A DNA stretch of 64,000 bases. It comes from Brytella acorum. GTDB lineage: Bacteria > Pseudomonadota > Alphaproteobacteria > Acetobacterales > Acetobacteraceae. Each line of letters opens with the position of its first letter. The first letter of the stretch is position 1. The DNA is taken from positions 248,001-312,000 of the forward strand of contig NZ_JARBJP010000001.1 of NCBI RefSeq assembly GCF_029309905.1, given 5' to 3'. Positions 4,057 through 15,852 of the stretch are shown piece by piece. The notes beneath the pieces are model-generated. The model was not told the origin of the DNA. It saw nothing but the letters and a program-made list of their open reading frames with translations, and searched no databases. A program made the translations under genes and the position numbers.

Positions 4057-4515
4057 ATGCAAGCAGCGGCAGTCAAAGAGGAGGCAGGCGGTTCCGGGCG
4101 CAAGAAAATGCTGCTGACGGCTATCGCCGTTCTTCTGGCGATAGCCATAGGAGGTGGTGCGTATGTCTGGAAAGCGAAGCATCATGGCGCGCCGAAAGTC
4201 GTAGCGGTCGCCTCGCCCTATAACCTGCCGATTCCTCCCATGATGGCCACGCTCGACGGCGACAGCGGGCATGCGTCCTATGTGCGCGTGACGGCGCAAC
4301 TGCAACTCGCCTCGGAGCAGGACGCGGATGCCGTGCGTCGTCGTCTTCCGCAGGTTGAGGATCTCTTCCAGACCTATCTGCATGATACCCGACCGGACGA
4401 GCTTGCGGGCAGCGGAATTTATCGTCTGCGTGAAGCGCTGTTCGCCCAGATCAGTAACGTGCTCGCGCCCATTCCAGTTCGCGACCTCTTTTTTACGGAG
4501 CTTCTCGTTCAATGA
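4057..4515 (+). CDS. fliL: Flagellar basal body-associated protein FliL
   Basis: This 152-aa protein has a single N-terminal membrane span (about residues 18-40, after a lysine pair). The periplasmic domain contains YVRVTAQLQLAS and a C-terminal PIPVRDLFFTELLVQ, typical of FliL. FliL surrounds the stator units next to the MS ring and supports torque generation. The identification is strengthened by position: the stop overlaps the fliM start as ATGA (4512-4515), the usual fliL-fliM pair. No strong ribosome site is visible before the ATG at 4057. This is the first gene of the block; a flagellar promoter should lie in 3827-4056, but I could not identify a convincing one. Confidence 0.9.
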   Translation: MQAAAVKEEAGGSGRKKMLLTAIAVLLAIAIGGGAYVWKAKHHGAPKVVAVASPYNLPIPPMMATLDGDSGHASYVRVTAQLQLASEQDADAVRRRLPQVEDLFQTYLHDTRPDELAGSGIYRLREALFAQISNVLAPIPVRDLFFTELLVQ

Positions 4516-5585
4516 GTTCCGCTGTCAGTGATATCGCTCCGGCATCGGCGCGCCGCTCTCCACCGCTTCCTTTTCGTACGGTCGTCGACGCCGCCGTGAC
4601 GGCGGAACAGAACGCTACGGCGACGCGGCCTCAACGGAAGGGCATCGAGCTTCTGATCGGCACCTCGCACGTCTCGTACGAGCGGTTGCCCATGCTCGAG
4701 ATTGTCTGCGATCGCATGATGCGACTCATGACGACGACGCTCCGCAACATGATGAACGACAATGTGGATGTGTCTCTCGAGTCACTCTCGTCGGAGCGTT
4801 TCGGAGATATTCTGCGCGGCGAGCCCGGTCACGCGATTTTCGCCGTGTTCAAGGCCGAAGAGTGGGAGAATTACGGGGTCGTCATCCTGAGTTCGTCACT
4901 GGTCTACATGTTTGTGGATGCGCTGCTCGGCGGCGGATGTCGGGACACCGACAGCGGTGGGGCGCCCCCGGTCTGGCCGGATCGGCCCCATACGACGATT
5001 GAGCGTAATCTGATGGAGCCGCTCGTCCGGGCCGTTCTTGCCGATCTGTCGCATGCGTTTGGTCCGCTCTGCGCGGTGACATTGCGCTTTGACCGGCTTG
5101 AGTTGAACTCACGTTTCGTGGCCATTTCCCGTGAAACCAATGGCGCTGTCGCGGCACGTTTTCTTGTTTCGATTGGCAACGGTCGGGGAGAAATGACGGT
5201 CGTTCTCCCTCATGCGACGCTTGAGCCGGTACGCGATGTACTGTTGCAGCAGTTCATGGGAGAGAAGTTCGGTCACGATCAGACCTGGGAACAGCATCTG
5301 GCGCAGGAGTTGTGGCAGACGGAACTTGAGCTTGACTGTGTGATTGACGAACAGATGATGAGTCTGTCGGACATCCTCAAGTTGAAACCGGGTCAGAAGC
5401 TCGTGCTTCAGCATCGTGAAGGTGCCTTCGCCCAGTTGCGTTGTGGCGGCACGACGATGTTCTCCGGCCGTATCGGACAATATAAGGGGCGCGTTGCCTT
5501 CAAGATTGAAGGGCCGCCTGTCACCAGCGCACCTTCCGGCGATCTCGACGCCGAAATCGAACAGATGGGTGAAGAAAATGGCTGA
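4512..5585 (+). CDS. fliM: Flagellar motor switch protein FliM
   Basis: The 357-aa product has the FliM layout: a CheC-like middle domain beginning near LIGTSHVSYERLPMLEIV and a C-terminal SpoA (surface presentation of antigens) domain with LSDILKLKPGQKLVL and FSGRIGQYKGRVAFKI. FliM forms the C ring with FliG and FliN and sets rotation direction. The first 50 residues are Ala/Pro-rich and lack the usual N-terminal EIDALL-type peptide that binds phosphorylated CheY. The gene overlaps fliL by four bases and the next gene by eight (5578-5585), so translation is probably coupled. Confidence 0.92.
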   Translation: MSSAVSDIAPASARRSPPLPFRTVVDAAVTAEQNATATRPQRKGIELLIGTSHVSYERLPMLEIVCDRMMRLMTTTLRNMMNDNVDVSLESLSSERFGDILRGEPGHAIFAVFKAEEWENYGVVILSSSLVYMFVDALLGGGCRDTDSGGAPPVWPDRPHTTIERNLMEPLVRAVLADLSHAFGPLCAVTLRFDRLELNSRFVAISRETNGAVAARFLVSIGNGRGEMTVVLPHATLEPVRDVLLQQFMGEKFGHDQTWEQHLAQELWQTELELDCVIDEQMMSLSDILKLKPGQKLVLQHREGAFAQLRCGGTTMFSGRIGQYKGRVAFKIEGPPVTSAPSGDLDAEIEQMGEENG

Positions 5586-6039
5586 CATTCAGCTAGGAAT
5601 TGAAGCGACCCTCTCACTTCTTTTGATTCTGTCGATCTTTTACAGCCTGCATCTCGGGCGCGCGCTGACATCCCTTCGTCGGGATAAGGACGAGCTAGGT
5701 CGGCTGATCCAGAGTCTTGATCGAAGCAGCGGCGATGCCCGTAGCGGCATCGAGCATTTGCGACAGACAACCGAGGTCTCTGCCCGTCAGTTGGGCAAGA
5801 CCGTGGATCAGGGCAAACTGTTGCGTGCGGAACTGGTTGAGCTGTGCAAACTGGGAGAAGATCTCGCGACCCGTCTCGAAGGACGCTCTGTCTACCAGCG
5901 CCCCTCGCTTGTTTCAGATGGTGACGATAACACGCCGTTGATGACCGAGGTTGCGCCTCCCGAGCCGACGCGAAGCGTCGGTGTCAAGAGCGATGCTGAG
6001 CGGGAACTCCTCCGTGCATTGCGTTTGCAGAGAGCCTGA
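5578..6039 (+). CDS. Flagellar operon membrane-anchored coiled-coil protein (DUF6468-like)
   Basis: A 153-aa protein with one N-terminal membrane span (about residues 8-28, LSLLLILSIFYSLHLGRAL). It is followed by a long charged, probably coiled-coil segment (about 30-105) and a short low-complexity tail. The position between fliM and motE matches a small protein found in flagellar operons of Rhodospirillales, which I recall as DUF6468; that name should be checked. Its function is unknown to me. It is plausibly a motor accessory, by context only. The ATG at 5578 overlaps the end of fliM by eight bases. An in-frame upstream extension inside fliM exists but is not expected to be used. Confidence 0.72.
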   Translation: MADIQLGIEATLSLLLILSIFYSLHLGRALTSLRRDKDELGRLIQSLDRSSGDARSGIEHLRQTTEVSARQLGKTVDQGKLLRAELVELCKLGEDLATRLEGRSVYQRPSLVSDGDDNTPLMTEVAPPEPTRSVGVKSDAERELLRALRLQRA

Positions 6040-6041
6040 AA

Positions 6042-6791
6042 ATGGGTCGCACGATAAGTCTTCGTCCTACACTCTCGCGGATCGTGCCGGTTGCAACCGC
6101 GTGCATGCTTCTGTTGCTCGGGCTGAATGTTTACGACATTGCCCAGAATCTGCTGGGGATCGCTCAGGGAGATCCGTCGGACGATCTGCTGATTGCGCAA
6201 GCGCGTGCTGTTCCTCAAAGCGGAAGTGGCCCGGCTTCGGCTAAAGTCAGCGCCGGCGGAACGGGGGAGGCGTCGTCGAGCCAGGCGCCAGTCGTCAAGC
6301 CCGCCGGTTTCGTGGCTAATCGATGCGACGGCGATAAGGCTTGCGCTGGTCAGCCCGTCCCGGTCGCCATTTCGGCCGATCAATCCGCGCTGATCAAGGA
6401 TATTCAGACCCAGGCTCAGAAAGTCGAACGGGAAACGCGCGAACTGGCTGAACGAAAGCAACTTCTCGAAGCGGCCTCCATTGCGCTTGACCGCAAGCTT
6501 TCCAGCCTGACAGTTGATTCCAGTGCAGGAAGCGCGAAACGTACGGCGTCTCTGTCGGATGACGACATGGGGCGTTTGACCGCAATTTATGGCGCGATGA
6601 AGCCGGCGGATGCCGCGGCTATTTTCGATATTCTGGATCTGCATGTCTGCGTCATGCTGTTGCAACATATGACGCCGAGGCGTGCGTCCGCGATCATGGA
6701 AGCAATGTCACCTCAACGCGCGATTCTGGCGACGCAGATGCTTGCCGGTCGTCAGCCGATTTTGATTCCGGTCAGTCACAATGGAGGCTAA
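6042..6791 (+). CDS. motE: MotE-family flagellar motility protein
   Basis: This 249-aa protein has an N-terminal signal or anchor (about residues 12-30, IVPVATACMLLLLGLNVYDI), a central coiled coil (about 125-165) and a C-terminal helical domain. The last contains YGAMKPADAAAIFDIL and MTPRRASAIMEAMSP, repeats like the N-terminal domain of MgtE magnesium transporters. That combination is typical of MotE. In alphaproteobacteria MotE is a periplasmic chaperone for MotC, which stabilises the stator. An internal Gly/Ser/Ala-rich linker lies around residues 55-85. It starts two bases after the upstream stop and overlaps the next gene by 11 bases, so it is one operon with fliL-fliM. Confidence 0.82.
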   Translation: MGRTISLRPTLSRIVPVATACMLLLLGLNVYDIAQNLLGIAQGDPSDDLLIAQARAVPQSGSGPASAKVSAGGTGEASSSQAPVVKPAGFVANRCDGDKACAGQPVPVAISADQSALIKDIQTQAQKVERETRELAERKQLLEAASIALDRKLSSLTVDSSAGSAKRTASLSDDDMGRLTAIYGAMKPADAAAIFDILDLHVCVMLLQHMTPRRASAIMEAMSPQRAILATQMLAGRQPILIPVSHNGG

Positions 6792-9342
6792 GCGAAGCGA
6801 TATCATGCGCTGGCGTTCTATCTTTCTGTTGGCTTCAGCGGCTGGCGTGGTCCCGACTGTCGGCAGAGCGGATGAAGCGACCCGACACTGGACTGTGACG
6901 CCTGTGGCGCGTCTTGTCGTTCAGTCTCTCGGTCAGGACGGAATGCCCGTGCCTCGTCTGCCTTCCGGCTGGGGATTTATCGGTAATCCGAACATATATT
7001 TTAGTCCGAAATCCACGCCGTCCTCGGGCGGGGAAGTCCAGGCGCCGGTTCCTGGAACGCCGGGCCAAGCAGCTGATTTCGGAAATTCGTTGAAAGACGG
7101 GGTGCCGTCTGCTGACTTGACCCCATTGATCACGTCTGTCGACAGGCACAGCCTCTGGATTCCGGTCGCGCAGGACGTTGCCGTCGCAGGCTATCAGAAT
7201 AACGGTCGAGCGACCATCGTGCTTGGCGGCAAGCAGAGTTTGCCCGACTCCCCGTCGGATGTGGCCAACGATATTACCTGGCGCAGTTTCACACGGGGAA
7301 ACGCGACCGTTATCGAGGTCTCCGGGCTGGTTGACGCGCATGTCACGCTAGTGCCTCAGGAGCGCGGCGGTCAGGCGGGATGGATGATCAGTGATGACGT
7401 GTCCGTCCTCCCATCCGAGAACTTCGTCACGCTGAGTCAGAAGGGCGCGACCATCATCTTCTCGCCCGGCAATGCCATGGAGCAGAAGACGGCGCGCACG
7501 ATGGAGTTCTCCGACCCCCAGTCGGGGAGGCGCCTCCTGCTCGGCCTTGTAAGCGGCGCCGACTGGCGTGTTCCCCAGCCTATGCGCGGGCCGGGTTATG
7601 ATATCCGCCGAACATTGGCCGGTGTGGTGGTAGCGGCTGACTCCGACGCCCTCGAGTTGAGAAATGTCGCAAACGGTTTCGCGCTTGATGCGGTGGGTGA
7701 GGAAACCGTTCCCGTACAGTTGCCCCATTCCCGCACTCTCAGCGTCTCTCCAGGCCTTTTGCTGAGTGCGGCCGAGCCGGACATATTGCGCGAAAACTTC
7801 AGGAGAGCCTGGACGGCGGCCGCGCTTGCCGAACCTGCCCAACGGTTTTCCGCTCGAATTCAGGCATCAAGGGCCGCGTTGGCGCTTGGCGACGCAAAGA
7901 ACGCCAAAGCCATCATGGATGTGGCCTTGCAGGACGATCCTCAAGGAGTCGATCGAGAGGGCGTATGGCCGCTTCAGCGTGCGATTGGCGTCCTGCATGG
8001 GCACCTTCCGGATATGGCAGCGAGCGCGGACAATAATACCCCGGAAGACCAGCTCTGGAGAGGGCTGGCCCTCACCGTCCAGCAGCAGCCGCCTTTCGAC
8101 GATGACGGGCAGCGTGCTCATACGGCCGAACTGCTCGTCGCGGGTCTGTCGACGCTTGAGCATTACCCGGCGCCACTCCGTGCCGCCCTGAAGGGACCGG
8201 CGACCGAGTGGATCGCGCGATATGGCAAGGATCTGGCGCCAGATGTATTTGCGGGCCTTCCGGATGATGGCGACAGGCGGCTTGCGTCGGCTCTCGACCT
8301 GTCACGGAGGGATGGTGCCGATGCTCTCCCTGCCCTGGAAGCCGTCAGTCACGATGTGGATCTCGTGCGGGCAGCCAAGGCACGGGAAGCGTTCCTTCTC
8401 TATGCGCACAAGAAAGACCCGGATCCCCTCAAACTCGCAAAAGCACTCGATATTCTGCGGCCTTCCAGTCGTATCGCGGGCCGCGAACCGCAGGTGTTGA
8501 TTGAGCAGATCCATGCCTACATGGATGCGGGACGCTGGACACTGGCCGAGCAGTCTCTGGCGGATCTGGCGCGTGTCAGTTCGGTCTGGAAGGACGAAGC
8601 GGAACGGGTCCGGCAGGATCTTCTCACCCGCATGCAGTCCGCGCGTCAGAATGTTCAGAAATTGACACCGGAAGATGCTTCGGACCTTTTCGTGGCTTTC
8701 AGACAGGCGGCGGATAGCGCCGGGCATGGATCCGAAGAGGCGAGCACTCTTTTGCAGGCCCTGGCCGACTCTTATGGCGCTTTGGGTCTCAGGGATCGGG
8801 AAGTGGCCACATTACATGATCTTCTACCCCAGATTTCCGATCCGACGCGCAAGCAGACGGTTGTCGATCATCTCGCTGCGCTGCTTCTGGCGTCCGGCAA
8901 GCCACAGGACGCTGCGGCATTTCTGAAAGACCAGCCTGCTGACGATCAACTGACCCCCGATCGGCGTGTGTTGCAGGCTCGTATCGAGTTTGCGGCGGGC
9001 AAGGACGATGCAGCGCTCGCACGGCTTGCGGGAGTCGAGACGGATGCGGCCTATGATTTGCGAGCGCGCATCGCGGAAAGCAGGCAGGACTGGCCAGGCG
9101 CCGTGGCGGCGCTCCAGAAGATCAGCACCTATGCGCTTGCGCCGATCGGTCCGTTGGCTCCCGAGCAGCAGGTTTATATGGCGCGTCTCTGCGGAGACGC
9201 GGTCAGGGCCGGAAATGTCGAGGTGGTCGCGCGGGTTCAGCGCGATGCGAGTGGTCGCATCACAGATCCCGAATTGAAGAAGATCATGTCCTATCTCACG
9301 GTTTCCGCCCCGCAATCATCTACGGCATTGTCACGTCGGTAA
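6781..9342 (+). CDS. Large secreted helical-repeat (TPR-like) protein of the flagellar operon, function unknown
   Basis: I do not recognise a named family. From ATG 6781 it is 853 aa; an in-frame ATG at 6805 would start directly with a signal peptide (MRWRSIFLLASAAG, likely cut after GRA). A GGAGG lies at 6784-6788, too far from 6805 to be decisive. Residues about 30-330 look beta-rich. From about 340 to the end the sequence is Ala/Leu-rich and alternates short helices (for example ARIQASRAALALGDAKNAKA and LHDLLPQISDPTRKQTVVDH), as in tetratricopeptide repeats. It is the last gene of the fliL-fliM block and overlaps motE, suggesting a periplasmic flagellar or motor-associated role; this is inference. 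A strong terminator follows directly. Confidence 0.7.
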   Translation: MEAKRSDIMRWRSIFLLASAAGVVPTVGRADEATRHWTVTPVARLVVQSLGQDGMPVPRLPSGWGFIGNPNIYFSPKSTPSSGGEVQAPVPGTPGQAADFGNSLKDGVPSADLTPLITSVDRHSLWIPVAQDVAVAGYQNNGRATIVLGGKQSLPDSPSDVANDITWRSFTRGNATVIEVSGLVDAHVTLVPQERGGQAGWMISDDVSVLPSENFVTLSQKGATIIFSPGNAMEQKTARTMEFSDPQSGRRLLLGLVSGADWRVPQPMRGPGYDIRRTLAGVVVAADSDALELRNVANGFALDAVGEETVPVQLPHSRTLSVSPGLLLSAAEPDILRENFRRAWTAAALAEPAQRFSARIQASRAALALGDAKNAKAIMDVALQDDPQGVDREGVWPLQRAIGVLHGHLPDMAASADNNTPEDQLWRGLALTVQQQPPFDDDGQRAHTAELLVAGLSTLEHYPAPLRAALKGPATEWIARYGKDLAPDVFAGLPDDGDRRLASALDLSRRDGADALPALEAVSHDVDLVRAAKAREAFLLYAHKKDPDPLKLAKALDILRPSSRIAGREPQVLIEQIHAYMDAGRWTLAEQSLADLARVSSVWKDEAERVRQDLLTRMQSARQNVQKLTPEDASDLFVAFRQAADSAGHGSEEASTLLQALADSYGALGLRDREVATLHDLLPQISDPTRKQTVVDHLAALLLASGKPQDAAAFLKDQPADDQLTPDRRVLQARIEFAAGKDDAALARLAGVETDAAYDLRARIAESRQDWPGAVAALQKISTYALAPIGPLAPEQQVYMARLCGDAVRAGNVEVVARVQRDASGRITDPELKKIMSYLTVSAPQSSTALSRR

Positions 9343-9916
9343 GTGAGCTGGTGTGGAGAATTTCCACACCAGCCTTTTGAAGAGAAGTCTGCGTCGCCTC
9401 CCAAATGCGGTGGACCGGGCGGCACGCATCCATGACAACGATCGCTTCGAATCCTGCACGGCGGGCATCAAGAGCGGTGGCCGCGACGCAGAAATCCAGC
9501 GCCAATCCGGCGATGAAGACCCGTCTCACGTCCAGTCCCCCTAAAAGAGCCGCGAGGCCTGTCGTCATCCCACCATCGTCGCAAAACGCCGAATAGGAGT
9601 CGTGGGCGGGACTGGTGCCTTTGCGCACGATATGACGGATGCGTGTCTGATCCAGAGTCTGGGCCAACTCCACGCCAGGCGTGCCGCGCACGCAGTGCGA
9701 AGGCCATGGACCGCCCATGGCGTCGAATGAAATGTGTTCGGGCGGGTGCCAATCCTGCGAGGCGATCACGCACCGGAAAGGTAGACCTGAAAGTCTGTTG
9801 ATGGGCGCAATGACATGATCGCCGTTGGGAACGCCCAAGGCGCCTCCGGGCAGAAAGTCGTTCTGAACGTCAATGATCAGAAGGGCATCATGAATGGCGG
9901 ACGTCATGACGGTCAT
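9320..9916 (-). CDS. pncA: Nicotinamidase PncA
   Basis: The 198-aa protein belongs to the isochorismatase-like cysteine hydrolases and converts nicotinamide to nicotinate for NAD salvage. The triad is visible: Asp16 in DVQNDF, Lys99 in VRKG and Cys143 in LDFCV. The metal-site residues Asp55, His57 and His61 appear in SQDWHPPEH. SYSAF and the GGALGVP loop also match nicotinamidases. The ATG at 9916 has an AGGAG ribosome site nearby. Its stop overlaps the 3' end of the convergent 853-aa gene by 23 bases. The gene lies 67 bases downstream of ligA; pncA beside an NAD-dependent ligase may be chance. Confidence 0.9.
   Translation of the reverse strand: MTVMTSAIHDALLIIDVQNDFLPGGALGVPNGDHVIAPINRLSGLPFRCVIASQDWHPPEHISFDAMGGPWPSHCVRGTPGVELAQTLDQTRIRHIVRKGTSPAHDSYSAFCDDGGMTTGLAALLGGLDVRRVFIAGLALDFCVAATALDARRAGFEAIVVMDACRPVHRIWEATQTSLQKAGVEILHTSSLTDVTMP
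9347..9377 (+). terminator. Rho-independent terminator of the flagellar operon
   Basis: A perfect 11-bp inverted repeat (9347-9357 with 9363-9373, loop GAATT) is followed by CTTTTG. It begins five bases after the stop of the 853-aa gene. The convergent pncA ends at 9320, so the hairpin also lies within the pncA reading frame and encodes residues near its C-terminus. Confidence 0.8.
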
Positions 9917-9983: not shown

Positions 9984-13783
<3,800 letters not shown>

Positions 13784-13835
13784 GACGTCAGAACCCTGTC
13801 ACGTTCGGAAATGCCCATCGGGCGAGGCGGCCTGT

Positions 13836-13859
13836 CGGCCCGCGCATGCGTGCGGGCCG
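13836..13859 (-). repeat. GC-rich inverted repeat between bamD and recN
   Basis: The arms CGGCCCGC (13836-13843) and GCGGGCCG (13852-13859) are perfectly complementary, with an 8-base loop. There is no T run on the minus strand, so it is at best a weak or Rho-assisted terminator, or an mRNA-stabilising hairpin between bamD and recN. Confidence 0.5.
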
Positions 13860-13879
13860 GGAAGCGGAAACCCGGAAAA

Positions 13880-14767
13880 TCAGAAAATACTATGCCACAT
13901 GCGTCCGAAGAAGCCGGGCTCGGTTCCGGCTTTTTTGCCTGGCTTCGGCGTATCGTTGGACGCGAGATGGTATTCTTTCAGGTTCGTATAGGCATACCGG
14001 TACCACTTGCTGTCAGGGTAATTATAACCGAGGATGGAAGCCGTGCGGCGGGCCTCATCGCCCAGACCCAGTGAGAGATACACTTCCACCAGACGCTCAA
14101 GCGCTTCGGGCACGTGGTTGGTGGTCTGGAAATCCTGCACGACGCGCTGATAGCGGTTCATGGAGGCTTCATAGTTGCGCTGCTGCTGATAGTAGCGACC
14201 CACCAGCATTTCCTTGCCGGCGAGATGATCGCGGCACAGATCGATCTTCAGGCGAGCGTCGCGGGCGTAATCCGTCTGCGGAAAGCGTGTGACGACCTCT
14301 TCAAGCGCATCCATCGCTTCGATGGTTCCCTGCTGGTCGCGCTGCACGTCGGCGATCTGTTCGTAGTAACAAAGGGCGCGCAGATAGAAGGCATAGGCCG
14401 CGTCAGGGCTTGTGGGATGAAGTTCAAGGTAGCGGTCGAGCTGCTGGACGGAGAGTGCGTATTCGCCCTGGAGATAGTAGGCATAGCCTTCCATCAGTTC
14501 GGCGTTGGCCGTGTATCCTGAATAGGGGTAATTCTGCTGGAGAAGTTCGAATTCACCACTGGCCAATACGTAGCGTTGCGAATGCAGAGCATCCACGCCG
14601 TAATTGTACAAGGATTCGGCGCTTGCCAGCTTGGGCGCCTCCATCTTGTCCTTGTTCGAAAAGTATGAGCACCCGCCGAGCACCAGAACGCTGCCAGCGA
14701 TCATGACGCGGGATGCAGTACGCAGTGTTCCGGACATAAAAGATGTGCGTTCGATGGGGTGTGACAT
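13880..14767 (-). CDS. bamD: Outer membrane assembly lipoprotein BamD
   Basis: A lipoprotein of about 295 aa with lipobox VLGGC and tetratricopeptide repeats. Typical BamD segments are LYNYGVDALHSQRYVLASGEF, then YPYSGY and YALSVQQLDRYLELHP. It is the essential partner of BamA in inserting beta-barrel proteins into the outer membrane. Start choice is open: the ATG at 14767 has a GAAAGAG-like ribosome site; 14782 (five residues longer) and 14737 (ten shorter, starting directly with the signal peptide) are alternatives. It lies 74 bases after lpxC on the same strand, a cell-envelope pairing common in alphaproteobacteria. Confidence 0.93.
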   Translation of the reverse strand: MSHPIERTSFMSGTLRTASRVMIAGSVLVLGGCSYFSNKDKMEAPKLASAESLYNYGVDALHSQRYVLASGEFELLQQNYPYSGYTANAELMEGYAYYLQGEYALSVQQLDRYLELHPTSPDAAYAFYLRALCYYEQIADVQRDQQGTIEAMDALEEVVTRFPQTDYARDARLKIDLCRDHLAGKEMLVGRYYQQQRNYEASMNRYQRVVQDFQTTNHVPEALERLVEVYLSLGLGDEARRTASILGYNYPDSKWYRYAYTNLKEYHLASNDTPKPGKKAGTEPGFFGRMWHSIF

Positions 14768-14841
14768 GCCAGCTCTTTCCATGGTGCTGCGTGTTATATC
14801 ACGCGGCCCAGCGCGGAAAAGCCCATGCGTGAAGATTGCGT

Positions 14842-15852
14842 TCAGGCTGCGTTCAGGCGTGAGCGCGCGGGCGCCTCGCTGACCATACGCCAGTTGGCCG
14901 GGTTCGCGAAGACCGCGCGCAACAGGCGGTTATTGAGACAGTGCCCAGACTTGTGCCCCATGAAGCCCGCCTGAAGCGTGTGACCTGCGAGATAGAGATC
15001 TCCGACCGCGTCCATCAGCTTGTGGCGTACGAATTCGCCTTCGCGACGCAGCCCCGCCGGATTGATGATCGTCGCGCCGTCCACGACAATCGCATTGTCC
15101 AGAGAGCCGCCACGGGCAAGGCCCGCTTCCTGCAGATGCTGGATATCGCGGCGTTCGATGAAGGTACGGCAGTTGGCGACGTCCTGCCGGAAACGGGCTT
15201 CGCTCAGCGGCATCGCATAGCTCTGGCGGCCGATCGCCCTCGCTCCAAAATCGATCGACATGGCGAGAGCGAGTCCCCGGCGGGAAGGACGCAATTCCGC
15301 GAAAGCGCCGTTGTCGCCCTCGACGCGGACGCGCTCAAGTATTTCGATCCGCTCCCGGACCGCGTGTTGTTCCGTCGTGCCGGCGCACTGGATCAGGAAA
15401 ACGAATTCCGCCGCCGAACCGTCGAGAATTGGAATTTCCGGACCATCGACATCGATCATCACATTGTCGATGCCGCAACCATGCAAGGCCGCCATGAGAT
15501 GCTCGATCGTCGCGACGCGAACGTTCGGGGCTTCGGGGTTGGCGATGACCGTGCTCAGACGCGTATCGACGACATGGTCGTAAAGAGCGGGAATGGGAGT
15601 CGCGTTTTCGACGTCGGAGCGCCGAAAGATCACGCCGTGGTCTGCTGCTGCCGGGTGCAGCGTCAGGCGCACATCATTGCCGCTATGCAGACCAACACCC
15701 ACGCACGAGATGGGATGAGCAAGTGTCCGCTGGCGCGCAGTCTGAGGCAGGAGCGAAGCCGACAGCGCCATCTCCATATCCGGCTGTAGGGGAAGGGTGG
15801 CCGCGCGCATCACAGGCGCGTCGCACCTATCGTACACAGCCGCACTTCGCAT
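14842..15852 (-). CDS. lpxC: UDP-3-O-acyl-N-acetylglucosamine deacetylase LpxC
   Basis: This 336-aa zinc enzyme catalyses the committed step of lipid A synthesis. Motifs are RQRTLAHPISCVGVGLHSG near the start, HLMAALHGCGIDN and the C-terminal zinc segment HKLMDAVGDLYLAG followed by GHKSGH. A GAGGAG ribosome site seven bases before the ATG at 15852 supports this start. It gives an N-terminal extension of about 38 residues before the conserved RQRTL. The gene is 149 bases downstream of ftsZ, the usual position at the end of a dcw cluster. Confidence 0.95.
   Translation of the reverse strand: MRSAAVYDRCDAPVMRAATLPLQPDMEMALSASLLPQTARQRTLAHPISCVGVGLHSGNDVRLTLHPAAADHGVIFRRSDVENATPIPALYDHVVDTRLSTVIANPEAPNVRVATIEHLMAALHGCGIDNVMIDVDGPEIPILDGSAAEFVFLIQCAGTTEQHAVRERIEILERVRVEGDNGAFAELRPSRRGLALAMSIDFGARAIGRQSYAMPLSEARFRQDVANCRTFIERRDIQHLQEAGLARGGSLDNAIVVDGATIINPAGLRREGEFVRHKLMDAVGDLYLAGHTLQAGFMGHKSGHCLNNRLLRAVFANPANWRMVSEAPARSRLNAA

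Follow-up and report, generated by a model that had tools for sequence, protein, structure and literature searches.

A TPR protein encoded behind motE in the flagellar operon of Brytella acorum, a probable Acetobacteraceae form of the MotK/FssB motor spoke

The first observation of the E-ring of the flagellar motor, in Caulobacter, dates from 1979, and MotE-like proteins together with TPR partners have lately been proposed to build this ring and its spokes (PMC13023049). In Cereibacter, mutants in motK and in motE are reported to carry filaments and not to swim. Both proteins are described as periplasmic and localised to the flagellated pole; MotK binds MotE and MotB2, and its localisation requires MotA2/MotB2 (PMC10954123). 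Deletion of fssB (CC_2058) in Caulobacter is likewise described as leaving filaments on non-motile cells, like a deletion of motB (PMC7885107). According to a review and a preprint MotE forms the E-ring, while MotC, MotK and CC_2058 resemble PflA (PMC13023049, PMC11870540). The PflA spokes of C. jejuni are reported to carry the PflB rim and to help in placing the stators (PMC12222027), and cryo-ET is reported to show PflA as spokes in contact with the E-ring (PMC12222027, PMC13023049). The AMIN domain is stated to be required for the function of C. jejuni PflA (PMC11870540), and an AMIN-like N-terminal domain has been reported for MotK, CC_2058 and Dshi_3259. The preprint further describes PflA as unconserved in sequence across taxa, candidates in most taxa having been picked by TPR matches near flagellar genes (PMC11870540). 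Our literature search returned no paper combining Acetobacteraceae, flagellar and MotE, and MotK, MotE and FssB are all absent from the main text of a Phaeobacter preprint (PMC11974857).

The locus and the predicted protein

The following features are found in the window, by which we mean the whole stretch of 64,000 nucleotides that was analysed.

4057..4515, + strand: fliL (Pfam FliL, 1.1e-13)
4512..5585, + strand: fliM (Pfam FliM, 2.5e-45; NCBIfam fliM_switch, 218.6 bits, cut-off 219.6)
5578..6039, + strand: DUF6468 gene (Pfam DUF6468, 6.4e-17)
6042..6791, + strand: motE, for the proposed E-ring protein and partner (MgtE_N, 2.9e-5; position in 15/15 named loci)
6781..9342, + strand: candidate TPR spoke protein of the MotK/FssB type, 853 aa (ORF list, homologues, AlphaFold2, Foldseek)
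6781..6870, + strand: putative signal peptide, residues 1-30 (judged by eye from the sequence)
7132..7392, + strand: predicted eight-stranded beta domain, residues 118-204 (AlphaFold2, pLDDT ~60-73)
7429..7692, + strand: second predicted beta region, residues 217-304, low confidence (AlphaFold2, pLDDT mostly <50)
7777..9300, + strand: predicted TPR-like superhelix, residues 333-840 (AlphaFold2; VIA-align matches to TPR proteins)
9347..9373, + strand: terminator-like hairpin with a short T run (z -5.5; absent from the terminator scan list)

The 853-aa reading frame at 6781-9342 on the forward strand begins with ATG and is the last gene of the order fliL-fliM-DUF6468-motE-TPR. It is a real gene and more than a chance frame, because homologues occur in >100 genomes. 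As claimed by the first-pass annotation it overlaps motE by 11 bases, motE ending at 6791 and the frame starting at 6781. An alternative in-frame ATG at 6805, equally possible, would remove this overlap; the start at 6781 is mildly favoured because in Acidomonas the ATG of the TPR gene also lies 11 bases inside motE (8989 vs 8999). The first 30 residues, judged by eye, carry KR..R-W-R, SIFLLASAAGVVPTV and G-R-A at positions 28-30 and look Sec-like, in line with the signal peptide suggested earlier.

The placement of the gene in a flagellar operon holds as well, since it stands on the same strand behind the genes for FliL, FliM, the DUF6468 protein and a MotE of the MgtE_N type. The protein in the MotE position matches Pfam MgtE_N with 24.9 bits, just below the cut-off of 25.9. 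The DUF6468 gene was searched from 5572, its first in-frame ATG being at 5578; it occupies the place of Cereibacter pflI in the gene order described in PMC10954123, and from this position the two may be equivalent.

The statement that an operon terminator closes the gene stands in part. A strong hairpin is found at about 9347-9373 (-21.2 kcal/mol for 9340-9385, z -5.5), but its T run consists of four T only, which is why it is missing from the terminator scan list, and it sits inside the coding part of a convergent gene (9320-9916, minus strand). By eye this gene resembles a nicotinamidase gene; it shares 23 bases with the 3' end of the TPR gene. Just downstream (9984-15852 of the window, minus strand) lie genes which by eye resemble ligA, recN, bamD and lpxC, and therefore the five-gene operon has no flagellar neighbours on that side.

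Searches of Pfam, NCBIfam and PHROGs gave no match above cut-off for the 853-aa protein, TPR families included; sub-threshold matches to methylmalonyl-CoA mutase and to tape-measure proteins were taken as chance. With phmmer the protein matched nothing among the PDB sequences, and profile searches of the same sequences listed generic TPR proteins and, weakly, PilQ, with no flagellar motor chain listed.

AlphaFold2 was run on 16 sequences, the window protein and 15 relatives. For the window protein strands are predicted within residues 118-304 and a superhelix at 333-840, with pLDDT mostly ~85-95 in the helical half and <50 for residues 1-62, 69-114 and 209-324. The model thus agrees with the beta-rich N-terminal and TPR-like C-terminal halves that had been read from the sequence. 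Folded alone, the beta part (residues 108-330) reached a mean pLDDT of 53, and this poorly modelled query had no fold match <0.001 in the PDB. Foldseek against 350,542 PDB chains placed 9hmf_K of the C. jejuni motor scaffold on top (E 1.6e-6, 832 columns); with its length of 773 this chain is taken to be PflA. This match supports a likeness to PflA but falls short of proof, because the TM is 0.18 and the rmsd 29 A, without rigid superposition, and unrelated TPR proteins come next (1.9e-5). In VIA-align general TPR proteins reach Z scores up to 13.7 among the 50 matches listed, and 9hmf is absent among these 50.

Proposed role at the motor

The window protein is almost certainly part of the flagellar motor, and very probably it represents the Acetobacteraceae form of MotK/FssB (CC_2058), a PflA-type periplasmic spoke which would connect the ring of MotE with the stator. 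The earlier proposal of a periplasmic motor or stator-ring component is well borne out, as the presence of the gene follows that of FliM across the class, and as it lies behind motE in 15/15 named loci and has counterparts which are needed for rotation. By analogy with these counterparts the same role, the formation of spokes, may be assigned to the window protein. After export by Sec its TPR superhelix would dock on MotE, which would form the E-ring round the MS-ring, and the N-terminal beta part would reach outward and hold or activate the MotA/MotB stator. A cell without the protein would be expected to build a flagellum which is unable to turn. The window genome has one MotB_plug match, on contig C2 with a MotA-type match adjoining, and this pair is presumably the stator that the TPR protein would serve.

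We regard it as improbable that the protein is instead a soluble, MotC-like client and stabiliser of MotE, one that acts as a regulator of the stator and is not built into the motor as a fixed spoke. In S. meliloti MotE, first called a chaperone of MotC, is reported to protect it, and in Cereibacter MotE is described as unstable without MotK (PMC10954123), which together with the dependence of MotK on MotA2/MotB2 would suit such a client. The polar position reported for MotK and MotE (PMC10954123), the contact of PflA spokes with the E-ring in cryo-ET (PMC12222027, PMC13023049) and the long superhelix predicted by AlphaFold2 for the window protein argue for the fixed spoke.

Spread with the flagellum and gene order in relatives

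A single-sequence search found the family in 105/150 genomes of the Acetobacteraceae sample. Profile A1 was built from 28 sequences, the window being locus L001, and loci L011 (a fragment) and L019 (at a contig end) were left out. It matched 118 of the same 150 genomes, 115 of them at E<=1e-10, and 156 of 289 genomes across the class, 151 of them at E<=1e-10. Because the single-sequence search found 105/150 and the profile 115/150, profile counts are used; weaker matches stay outside the family count (G053, G121, G143) and outside the class count (G121, G165, G171, G262, G407). Judged by these sequence matches the protein is a member of a family spread across the alphaproteobacterial class.

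The presence of the family follows the flagellum. In the class sample (n=289) the TPR protein is present in 143/160 genomes with FliM vs 8/129 without (both 143, TPR only 8, FliM only 17, neither 121; Fisher p 2.7e-51, where genomes are treated as independent although they are related). The corresponding numbers in the family sample (n=150) are 104 with both, 11 with TPR only, 10 with FliM only and 25 with neither. Wide occurrence in non-flagellated relatives, which the first-pass annotation held to speak against a motor function, is not seen: both samples pooled contain 19 genomes with the TPR protein and no FliM match, and most of these are probably gapped assemblies because 14 have FlgI. 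Of the 17 class genomes with FliM only, 8 are also without DUF6468 and so lack more of the module than the TPR gene.

Five genomes (G030, G116, G069, G364, G370) have the TPR protein without FliM and FlgI. G030 (L077) and G116 (L076), both ~99% complete, belong to one genus and carry the TPR gene without the other four operon genes nearby; in G116 the orphan copy is intact and full-length, and none of the other four genes is on its contig. Such an orphan is either a relic or has a second role. By eye, its neighbours in G116 are metal transporter-like and homocysteinase-like genes. The G116 copy would fit a general envelope or peptidoglycan-linked TPR protein which is merely co-transcribed with motor genes, as would the fact that AMIN-like domains, present in relatives, are found in pilus and wall proteins too. 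We consider this very improbable in view of the distribution over genomes with and without FliM, the conserved place in the operon and the paralysis reported for mutants of the counterparts MotK and CC_2058.

The order FliL-FliM-DUF6468-MotE-TPR is kept in 15/15 named Acetobacteraceae loci (Acidomonas methanolica and 14 Gluconobacter). FliM-DUF6468-MotE-TPR was found in 12/12 class regions examined and FliL in 11/12 of them, these regions being a subset of the 29 class loci chosen among those with fliM on the same contig. In the class regions a gap separates motE from the TPR gene. Four gaps were read, and five ORFs from two of them were searched, which gave two MotB-like proteins each in L086 and L093 and CheZ in L086. 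The first MotB-like protein of each pair matches MotB_plug above cut-off and carries an Asp in the membrane helix, a residue that the second, with a sub-threshold match, seems to lack. Similar ORFs lie, by eye, between motE and the TPR gene in L087 and L088, and paired MotB proteins are possible in some alphaproteobacteria.

The distance of the TPR gene from fliM in the first family search was <=8 kb in 71/94 genomes and 10-51 kb on the same contig in 6/94; in 17/94 the two lay on different contigs. Among named relatives from other orders, that in Azospirillum lipoferum adjoins motA-motB and that in Erythrobacter aureus follows close behind MotE, each in a flagellar cluster; the E. aureus gene (L080:7911-9557) codes for a 548-aa form matching the TPR part of the family only. 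Plasmids of Acetobacter, Komagataeibacter and Aristophania also carry the gene (L078, L079; H2, H4, H5), and in the two that were opened (Acetobacter, Komagataeibacter) it is surrounded by other flagellar genes. In Acetobacter pasteurianus it stands by fliE and flgB/flgC, with no motE seen in the stretch around it, and this neighbourhood could point to a factor for flagellar assembly, acting on rod, P-ring or export, in place of a motor part, a reading to which we give next to no chance as CC_2058 deletion mutants and motK disruption mutants are reported to keep their filaments.

AMIN domains and comparison with known counterparts

In the class relatives AMIN-like domains precede the central beta region, with two in 23/29 loci and one in 6/29, counts which are partly circular because the 37 segments that seeded our AMIN model came from 22 of these same loci. 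Independent of this model, Pfam gave sub-threshold AMIN-like matches in 7/8 class proteins and 5/6 Acetobacteraceae relatives scanned, and the class profile has a weak match to PilQ (E 0.0025). In the family alignment (n=28) seven sequences have one AMIN domain and 21, the window protein included, have none; the model found AMIN in 0/17 named loci, and neither it nor Pfam detected an AMIN-like domain in the window protein. A quick tree, from which 11/17 named rows were left out, places the window in a branch of 22 rows without detectable AMIN (support 99), nested in a branch of 26 rows in which one row has one copy. Residues 118-204 align (alignment A4, 20/29 class loci) with the region where class relatives show a weak third AMIN-like match, itself present in 17/29 of them.

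New here is this gradation, with two or one AMIN domains in the class, one in some Acetobacteraceae and none detectable in the branch of the window. We tentatively suggest, while holding it somewhat doubtful, that the spoke of acetic acid bacteria no longer has any of its wall-binding AMIN domains, their number having fallen from two to one to none. Loss is the simpler story because the outer relatives have AMIN domains, and divergent copies below detection are possible, for example in L006, L018, L021 and L024. With AMIN, the proposed wall holder, gone, anchoring would therefore fall to the remaining beta domain, to other proteins or to MotE. If the loss is true, wall anchoring of the spoke would be dispensable for torque, which would contradict the proposed MotK model and the AMIN requirement of C. 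jejuni PflA, and acetic acid bacteria would be a natural domain-deletion test of spoke function. The missing domains make the need for wall binding in stator holding testable. Furthermore, one profile recovers the family in most flagellated class members although the window protein has no TPR match above cut-off, and profile A1 is thus a usable family model.

Against the spoke function that we prefer speak the missing AMIN domain, the poorly modelled N-terminus, the orphan copies in G030 and G116, and the A. pasteurianus locus without a seen motE. The first-pass annotation knew of no standard flagellar protein of this design, which has to be corrected, as MotK, FssB and PflA share it. MotK of the Cereibacter sphaeroides Fla2 system has a beta N-terminus followed by TPRs and an operon with fliL, pflI and motE (PMC10954123); compared by its description it differs in its 652 aa, its AMIN domain and a motA between motE and motK, whereas the window operon has no motA and its TPR protein no detected AMIN. 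CC_2058/FssB of Caulobacter crescentus is described as an exported TPR protein whose gene adjoins that of the MotE homologue CC_2059 (PMC7885107, PMC11870540); by description it is unlike the window protein in its AMIN-like N-terminus (PMC10954123). C. jejuni PflA is likewise reported to be exported, with a beta-sandwich and 16-17 TPR (PMC12222027, PMC11870540), and to contact the MotE-like E-ring protein FlgY (PMC13023049); set beside the window protein by description, it differs in the AMIN-like nature of the sandwich and in a linker wrapping PflB. MotC of Sinorhizobium meliloti is a TPR-rich periplasmic partner of MotE (PMC13023049), described without AMIN and, again compared by description, encoded next to or downstream of motB, whereas the TPR gene of the window lies behind motE, and the one MotB_plug match of the genome is on contig C2.

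Kinship with MotK, CC_2058, MotC and PflA is suggested by locus, design and the literature. Because the AMIN-like N-terminal domain of MotK/FssB was not detected, the protein is filed as a variant in the profile A1 family and not as a standard MotK, with which it appears to share the export signal (by eye), the beta N-terminus, the TPR superhelix and the fliL-fliM-DUF6468-motE neighbourhood.
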